DNA of 64,000 nt from Halococcus salsus (lineage in GTDB: Archaea; Halobacteriota; Halobacteria; Halobacteriales; Halococcaceae). The notes below the pieces were generated by a model. It worked only from the letters and a program-made list of their open reading frames with translations, was not told the DNA's origin and made no database searches. The position numbers were made by a program, and so were the translations under genes. Below, piece after piece: positions 23,919-24,733 of this stretch. Position 1 is the first letter of the stretch. Every line of letters begins with the position of its first letter. The stretch covers positions 1,105,216-1,169,215 of the forward strand of contig NZ_JAAAJC010000001.1 of the NCBI RefSeq assembly GCF_009900715.1, given 5' to 3'.

Positions 23919-23995
23919 GATAGAAATCCCGCTGAAAAGAGCATAAGCTTTGTGCGGATCTGCTGTGAAGCGGCCTCGTACTGGCGAATTTCGAT

Positions 23996-24067
23996 AGTCC
24001 CGGGCAGATTCGAACTGCCGTCAACGGCTCCAAAGGCCGTTATGATTGGCCACTACACCACGGGACT
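23996..24067 (-). tRNA. tRNA-Gln (anticodon TTG)
   Basis: Reverse strand, 72 nt. The acceptor stem AGTCCCG/CGGGACT is perfect, the T arm is GGCAGTTCGAATCTGCC, and the anticodon stem ACGGC/GCCGT holds loop CTTTGGA, giving TTG. CCA is not encoded and no intron is seen. The 5' end (AGTCCCGTGGTG) recurs upstream. Confidence 0.92.
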
Positions 24068-24257
24068 GCGCTCACTTCGTTCGCTCGTCCCGTGTACCTC
24101 GCAAATCCTGCGGATTTGCTCACCACCACGGGACTCCTCATCTCAGTCGTCGTCCCGTGAGTATCGAAAACCCTTCGGGTTTTCTCACCACCGGAACGCT
24201 CGCTTCCCTCGCGTTCCGAGCCTCGCCTCGCTTCGTTCGGCGAGACACCACGGGACT
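24056..24257 (-). repeat. Modular hairpin array carrying copies of the tRNA-Gln 5' end
   Basis: The 12-mer CACCACGGGACT (the reverse complement of the tRNA-Gln 5' end) recurs exactly at 24056, 24124 and 24246, with a degenerate copy at 24186, giving units of 60-68 nt. The first two intervals contain an 8-bp stem (cacgggac/gtcccgtg at 24059/24087 and 24127/24152). They then carry a second 8-bp hairpin with a triloop: GCAAATCC/GGATTTGC (24101-24119) and GAAAACCC/GGGTTTTC (24166-24184). The third interval has stems GGAACGC/GCGTTCC (24193-24217) and CTCGCC/GGCGAG (24222-24244). It lies between sirR and the tRNA, all on one strand. Confidence 0.7.
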
Positions 24258-24301
24258 CCGGTCTTGGGTACCGTCGATGCGTACTTGAACGCTTCGAGAG
24301 G

Positions 24302-24733
24302 TCAGTCCGCCGCGCTGGGTTCGGCGTCGAGGAGTTCACAGACGTCCTCGTCGGGGGCGAAACAGTCGGGACACTCGCACTCGCGGTCGATGATGGTGTC
24401 GAGGCGTTCGGCCACCGTCTCGTCGATCACGCTTTCGAGCTGACTGGCCTCGGTGCGGTAGTCCTCGACGCCGAGCACCGAGACCAGGAACCGCTCGATG
24501 ATGCAGTAGGTCTGGAGCGAGTCGCGCGCCCGCTCGATCCCCTCGTCGGTGAGCGTCACGCCCTTGTACTTCTCGTGGTCGGCGAGCCCGCGGGCTTCGA
24601 GTTTCCCGATCATCTCGTTCGCGCTCGCGGGGCTCACGCCGAGCGAGTCGGCCAGCTTGCCGGTGGACGCCGGACCGTTCTCGATCTGCTGGACGAGATA
24701 GATCGCCTTGAGATATTGTTCTGCAGTGTTCAT
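24302..24733 (-). CDS. sirR: DtxR/SirR-family metal-dependent repressor
   Basis: A 143-residue regulator. The N-terminal winged helix (TAEQYLKAIYLVQQ to GVSPASANEMIGKLEARGL) is followed by the DtxR dimerisation and metal domain, including YCIIERFLVSVLGV and the metal-ligand Cys/His/Glu region EASQLESVIDETV; a C-terminal ECECPDCF cysteine cluster is present. The SH3-like third domain is absent, as in MntR/SirR types. The family represses iron or manganese uptake genes when metal is bound. It is the last gene of the sufCBD/ferritin-like cluster, suggesting feedback on iron-sulfur assembly. Confidence 0.88.
   Translation of the reverse strand: MNTAEQYLKAIYLVQQIENGPASTGKLADSLGVSPASANEMIGKLEARGLADHEKYKGVTLTDEGIERARDSLQTYCIIERFLVSVLGVEDYRTEASQLESVIDETVAERLDTIIDRECECPDCFAPDEDVCELLDAEPSAAD

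Follow-up and report, generated by a model that had tools for sequence, protein, structure and literature searches.

The window analysed here, a 64,000-nt stretch of the Halococcus salsus genome, contains an intact tRNA-Gln(TTG) gene and, upstream of it on the same strand, the gene of a DtxR/SirR-type iron-dependent repressor (sirR). The DNA between them holds an array of repeats and hairpins, whose features are listed in Table 1; X stands for the ~12 nt with which tRNA-Gln(TTG) begins, Xrc for their inverted copy. In the direction of the tRNA, the architecture is X-hairpin-Xrc-spacer-X. The promoter-like box CTCGAAGCGTTCAAGT comes first, followed by 25 nt, X and two larger hairpins, and next by GGTGGTGA-hairpin-CGATACT, Xrc, spacer, X. 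Then come GTGA-hairpin-CGAGGTA, Xrc, a spacer hairpin and the tRNA itself, starting with X. GGTGGTGA precedes both core hairpins.

Table 1. Positions in the window of the tRNA-Gln(TTG) gene, the array in front of it and the neighbouring gene.
Feature	Position	Strand	Evidence or remark
tRNA-Gln(TTG), intact	23995..24067	minus	ARAGORN; Rfam RF00005 61.6 bits
Innermost X, first 12 nt of tRNA-Gln, AGTCCCGTGGTG	24056-24067	minus	exact
Spacer hairpin, proximal unit, GAGCGAACGAAGTGAGC	24070..24086	minus	same spacer in relatives L002, L006
Xrc CACGGGAC, proximal unit, complementary to both adjoining X copies	24087..24094	minus	covariation
Core hairpin 1, GCAAATCC-GCA-GGATTTGC, conserved TGA / GA on its flanks	24101..24119	minus	
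X copy 1, exact tRNA 5' 12-mer	24124..24135	minus	
Spacer, distal unit	24136..24151	minus	
Xrc CACGGGAC, distal unit	24152..24159	minus	
Core hairpin 2, GAAAACCC-GAA-GGGTTTTC	24166..24184	minus	
CCGGTGGTG, part of the core module, degenerate copy of the earlier note	24186..24194	minus	
Inner hairpin GGAACGC..GCGTTCC, complex distal unit	24193..24217	minus	same place in L005, L008
Inner hairpin TCTCGCC..GGCGAG, complex distal unit	24222..24245	minus	
X copy 2, outermost, exact	24246..24257	minus	25 nt past promoter box
tRNA promoter-like box CTCGAAGCGTTCAAGT	24283..24298	minus	conserved in relatives with and without array
DtxR/SirR-type iron-dependent repressor gene, upstream, outside the element	24302..24733	minus	PF01325 2.8e-18, PF02742 2.3e-10

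The 3.5 Mb genome contains 5 exact copies of the 12-mer AGTCCCGTGGTG, 3 of them here; the other 2 lie elsewhere without the hairpin context of the array. The steps measure 68 nt, about 60 nt and about 62 nt. An earlier note on this DNA had described the tRNA 12-mer as repeated at 60-68 nt steps, twice exactly and once degenerately. The two exact upstream copies are confirmed, but the supposed degenerate one, CCGGTGGTG, has only its TGGTG part in common with the 12-mer; it is an element of the core module rather than of a tRNA copy. The same note had reported hairpins with triloops and differing but paired arms, both of which are found, and an 8-bp stem able to pair with the tRNA 5' end; this stem exists, although it is not limited to the first interval, CACGGGAC being present in both.

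The array region folds more stably than 100 of 100 dinucleotide shuffles (z = −4.35). In a search of the window against Rfam 15, the array gave no match above the gathering score, and only the two tRNAs matched. The decay of ordinary tandem tRNA gene duplications, also raised earlier, would agree with copies that are exact at the tRNA end. This origin is hardly credible, since remnants of the tRNA body are absent and copying always stops near tRNA position 12-14, where the common core hairpin follows and Xrc is present: of the tRNA, the end alone was copied, and with it come its inverted copy and a new hairpin core.

Conservation and covariation of the units

A covariance model built from 16 units matched 210 of the 392 genomes of the class, in 58 of its 86 genera, while the phylum sample gave no match outside the same order. 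The 30 best loci are all located in leaders of tRNA-Gln(TTG), with or without an intron (ARAGORN calls a few of the intron-containing copies Glu), and in the search of relatives, members of several families carry the unit ahead of tRNA-Gln. The covariance-model search of other haloarchaea, which had been proposed as a check, therefore finds the array conserved in relatives. The number of units at tRNA-Gln ranges from 0 to 3. Within the genus of the window, in assemblies that are partly draft, the array is present in the window genome (G000) and in G002, G003, G007 and G008, and absent from G001, G005 and G009.

In the first unit set, 7 of 8 hairpin-arm pairs were changed on both sides. In the larger set of 81 distinct units this holds for 15 of 16 pairs, with 96% of cells paired compared to 82% in shuffled ones, so that the claim of pairing retained despite sequence change is borne out. 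The arms are variable yet complementary, and the TGA..GA flanks of the core hairpin are invariant or nearly so. The loops are mostly C-GNN-G triloops, GAA being the commonest, and tandem G.A mismatches stand beside the stems. C-GNN-G triloops are unusually stable in DNA.

Additionally, a gene for an HNH endonuclease (PF01844, 2.2e-8) was observed upstream of intron-containing tRNA-Gln(TTG) in other haloarchaea (e.g. at loci L037, L046, L047 and L105). It ends directly before the tRNA at 17 of 36 intron-containing tRNA-Gln loci and at none of the 44 intron-less ones, which suggests an archaeal tRNA intron that spreads with an endonuclease encoded beside the intron and not inside it. A link between the HNH gene and the modules was rejected, as the gene tracks the tRNA intron and the modules occur with and without intron.

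Promoter position and folding of the leader

The promoter box of most genes without an array is found 23-40 nt before the tRNA. In genes with an array the distance from box to tRNA increases to 85-272 nt, whereas that from the box to the first X copy is mostly 25-40 nt; a distance of 25 nt, that of the window, holds for L001, L002, L004, L008, L010 and L015, and 23-40 nt for most others. The equality of the distance to the first X with the distance to an array-less tRNA indicates that the outermost X marks the former start of the tRNA. New DNA accordingly entered behind tRNA position ~12, and the gene end was regenerated.

The box is retained also where a different gene stands upstream. Its position and conservation point to a tRNA promoter, from which transcription would start at or just before the outermost X, the array then probably being the leader RNA of the pre-tRNA. 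Its transcription should be independent of readthrough from sirR, because sirR is separated from the outermost X by a promoter of the tRNA type. The proposed readthrough from the iron-regulator gene is unneeded and was rejected, the promoter intervening at the usual distance.

An array downstream of a promoter, strong covariation of the arms, invariant TGA/GA hairpin flanks and recurrence at tRNA-Gln across many genera all speak for a functional RNA, in which structured leader units steer the folding of pre-tRNA-Gln or its processing by RNase P, as a processing element or switch. We folded 22 intron-less Gln precursors as naked RNA. In 18 of them the minimum free energy fold gives the 3' strand of the acceptor stem another partner, by 0.1 to 5 kcal/mol, and the competition with the acceptor stem suspected earlier is thus possible in silico. 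However, such mispairing is an automatic result of the repeated X, and the other 4 precursors fold natively. Moreover, close relatives are entirely without the array, and covariation can also result from templated correction of DNA palindromes.

Modules at other tRNA ends and in reading frames

Weaker matches of the covariance model precede tRNA-Gly(CCC/TCC), tRNA-Thr(CGT) and tRNA-Gln(CTG), the enrichment at tRNAs being partly built in, since the module-finding model was trained on the modules themselves. The closing stem at these genes is mostly the 5' end of their own tRNA, e.g. GCGCCGG..CGGCGC, GTGCCGG..CGGCAC and GCACCGG..CGGTGC; the Gly units carry GCGCCGG, GTGCCGG or GCACCGG, each matching its own tRNA. 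The next class of matches, in nine genomes, lies on the antisense strand in tRNA 3' flanks (tRNA-Ala, Arg, Lys, Ser and Gly). In these modules X often reproduces the tRNA 3' end as its reverse complement, as in the tRNA-Ala module GACTCGGCGGGATTGAGC..GCGA..TTCGCCGAGT. X is more similar to its own than to other tRNAs, both at 5' ends (0.82 vs 0.60) and at 3' ends (0.71 vs 0.55).

An independent palindrome finder, used to count strict modules up to 250 nt from a tRNA, gave 78 sense and 2 antisense in the 5' flank, and 15 antisense and 2 sense in the 3' flank. Sense at the 5' end and antisense at the 3' end, the module is directed inward at either end of the tRNA gene, a mirror symmetry at the DNA level. 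The TGAGC/GCGA asymmetry of the core is tied to the element and not to the transcript. A loose GTGAGC..GCGA pattern gave 258 matches in the window's own genome against 113 in the control and was too noisy for use. A kink-turn or box C/D motif would suit the TGA..GA flanks in 5' leaders, but was rejected since the 3'-flank modules are antisense.

The weakest covariance matches are intergenic or within reading frames, with in-frame translations such as DGGERTEGSRSSSELRSDGG. A glpC-like gene of the window's own genome contains such a module (L191, G000:C3:159116-159158), common to G007, while the sister species G005 has the uninterrupted site ACCGACGGTGG. The in-frame modules carry TCGTC past the hairpin, which the tRNA modules do not. 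The two are likely related, judging from their common grammar at weak E-values (about 1e-4). We also observed, at L168, L183, L186, L188 and L189 in other genomes as well as at L191, palindromic insertions in the frame of unrelated proteins. They encode DGGER..GSR.SSE.RSDGG-like peptides, form a tandem pair in L168 and resemble Rickettsia palindromic elements.

The structure is hence not confined to the transcribed strand: the same oriented module stands antisense at tRNA 3' ends and similar ones occur in reading frames, where a function in the tRNA leader is inapplicable. Together with the non-uniform bistability of the precursors, these modules argue against a structure selected mainly for a role as leader RNA, and the step from covariation to RNA function made in the earlier note is not supported. 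We consider a processing element or switch unlikely as the main explanation, a secondary RNA role of the leader copies being possible.

Copies of tRNA ends were surveyed in the flanks (up to 400 nt) of 98 tRNAs from three genomes of three families. The tRNA's own 3' end is repeated downstream in 28 of the 98 and its own 5' end upstream in 6, compared with 0 for the 3' end upstream and 2 for the 5' end downstream in crossed controls. An inverted copy of at least 8 nt lies between the tRNA and the 3'-end copy in 22 of the 28 cases (mean 9.7 vs 5.6 shuffled), and these inverted copies between the repeats make the direct-inverted-direct pattern common to both tRNA ends. In the window's genome, eight tRNAs besides Gln have the pattern on their 3' side. 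They are Lys(TTT), Lys(CTT), Val(TAC), Val(CAC), Arg(TCG), Ser(GGA), Ser(CGA) and Tyr (L052, L054, L066, L077, L067, L068, L079 and L073, respectively), with exact or near-exact 3'-end copies 85-150 nt downstream, palindromes between, and two copies at Tyr and Ser(GGA).

Since 3'-end copies are common in the three genomes, the repeats might be attachment sites left by tyrosine recombinases, whose usual targets are tRNA genes. At archaeal att sites in these genes the tRNA end is regenerated, so that the gene is restored on integration, and direct repeats are left (PMC8371274), features that the array shares. Nevertheless, the direct repeats do not surround an integrase-bearing element: between most of them lie palindromes of about 50-180 nt, no integrase was seen inside these intervals, and an inverted X copy stands between the direct ones. 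Targeting of the 5' half is reported for pTN3-like integrases only (PMC8371274), and the array had zero similarity to the phage and plasmid collections searched. Scars of integrative elements are therefore a highly improbable source.

Proposed insertion of palindromic modules, and related systems

We regard the array, with a probability of roughly 60%, as made up of two small palindromic DNA modules of one kind, which is haloarchaeal and transposase-free and inserts at the ends of tRNA genes. Direct support comes from the X-Xrc-X architecture, the target-specific X, the mirror-oriented recurrence at both tRNA ends, the differences in occupancy among sister species, and the place of insertion with respect to the promoter. 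The Gln array looks like one case of a widespread haloarchaeal pattern, a DNA-level insertion and not an RNA switch. That the tRNA-Gln position is filled in many genera could also be compatible with selection. Neither a transposase or another gene for mobilisation nor any transposition event was observed.

According to the scheme that we propose, insertion behind the outermost ~12 nt (X) would regenerate the gene end and yield X - core hairpin - Xrc - spacer hairpin - X. The end of the core, (K)CC, may anneal to the terminal GG of X, and hairpin-primed extension from the core 3' end would copy X into Xrc. Folding back once more, now at the spacer, the strand would then copy Xrc into a new X, and re-annealing to the chromosome would complete the insertion. 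The tRNA would be kept intact and its promoter displaced outward, the array being transcribed as 5' leader and removed with it. Such fold-back accounts for X-Xrc-X, for the target-specific arms and for the exact restoration of the gene end. The complementarity of the arms would be maintained by templated repair of palindromes more than by RNA selection, and the module family presumably spread by insertion or fold-back copying.

Template switching during replication gives rise to inverted triplications with a direct-inverted-direct order, and the perfecting of quasi-palindromes gives covariation without selection. The modules share the direct-inverted-direct pattern, but random switching does not predict their recurring core or the fixed points, at gene ends, where they insert.

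Among the systems closest in kind are the small mobile repeats (SMR) and the palindrome-associated elements (PATE) of Haloquadratum walsbyi (PMC3119063). SMR are palindromic, about 80-110 bp long and transposase-free, with constant terminal inverted repeats and a strong preference for their targets, IS605-type elements, which are not duplicated; their mobilisation has been called 'enigmatic' (PMC3119063). Compared by description, the tRNA-end modules are likewise haloarchaeal, palindromic, transposase-free and selective in their targets, and they too are polymorphic among close relatives (0-3 units; empty in-frame site). However, in place of constant terminal inverted repeats they have outer arms copied from the target, they aim at tRNA ends, and X is duplicated.

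REP and Rickettsia palindromic elements (RPE) are tagged with GTAG or CGTC, the CGTC class being without a dedicated transposase (PMC3733652). As in these short palindromes, the modules are dispersed, intergenic and in-frame, with a constant foot and variable but complementary stems. Unlike the modules, REPs do not contain both an inverted and a direct target copy, and no hot spot at tRNA ends is described for them; the REP survey leaves haloarchaea unmentioned (PMC3733652). Inverted and direct target copies together are described neither for SMR/PATE (PMC3119063) nor for REP/RPE (PMC3733652), and tRNA-end copies in haloarchaea are undescribed in the open-access literature searched.

More tentatively, we propose a broader class of mobile, transposase-free palindromes that write their target into themselves, as X-Xrc-X by hairpin-primed synthesis, with tRNA ends as their main landing sites across haloarchaea. 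The modules make mobile palindromes that lack a transposase open to testing, and they caution that, where DNA is palindromic, covariation alone does not prove RNA function. In the three haloarchaea, between about a quarter and a third of the examined tRNA genes have copies of their ends, a frequency that makes this process a main force in shaping the leaders and trailers of tRNAs in these organisms.
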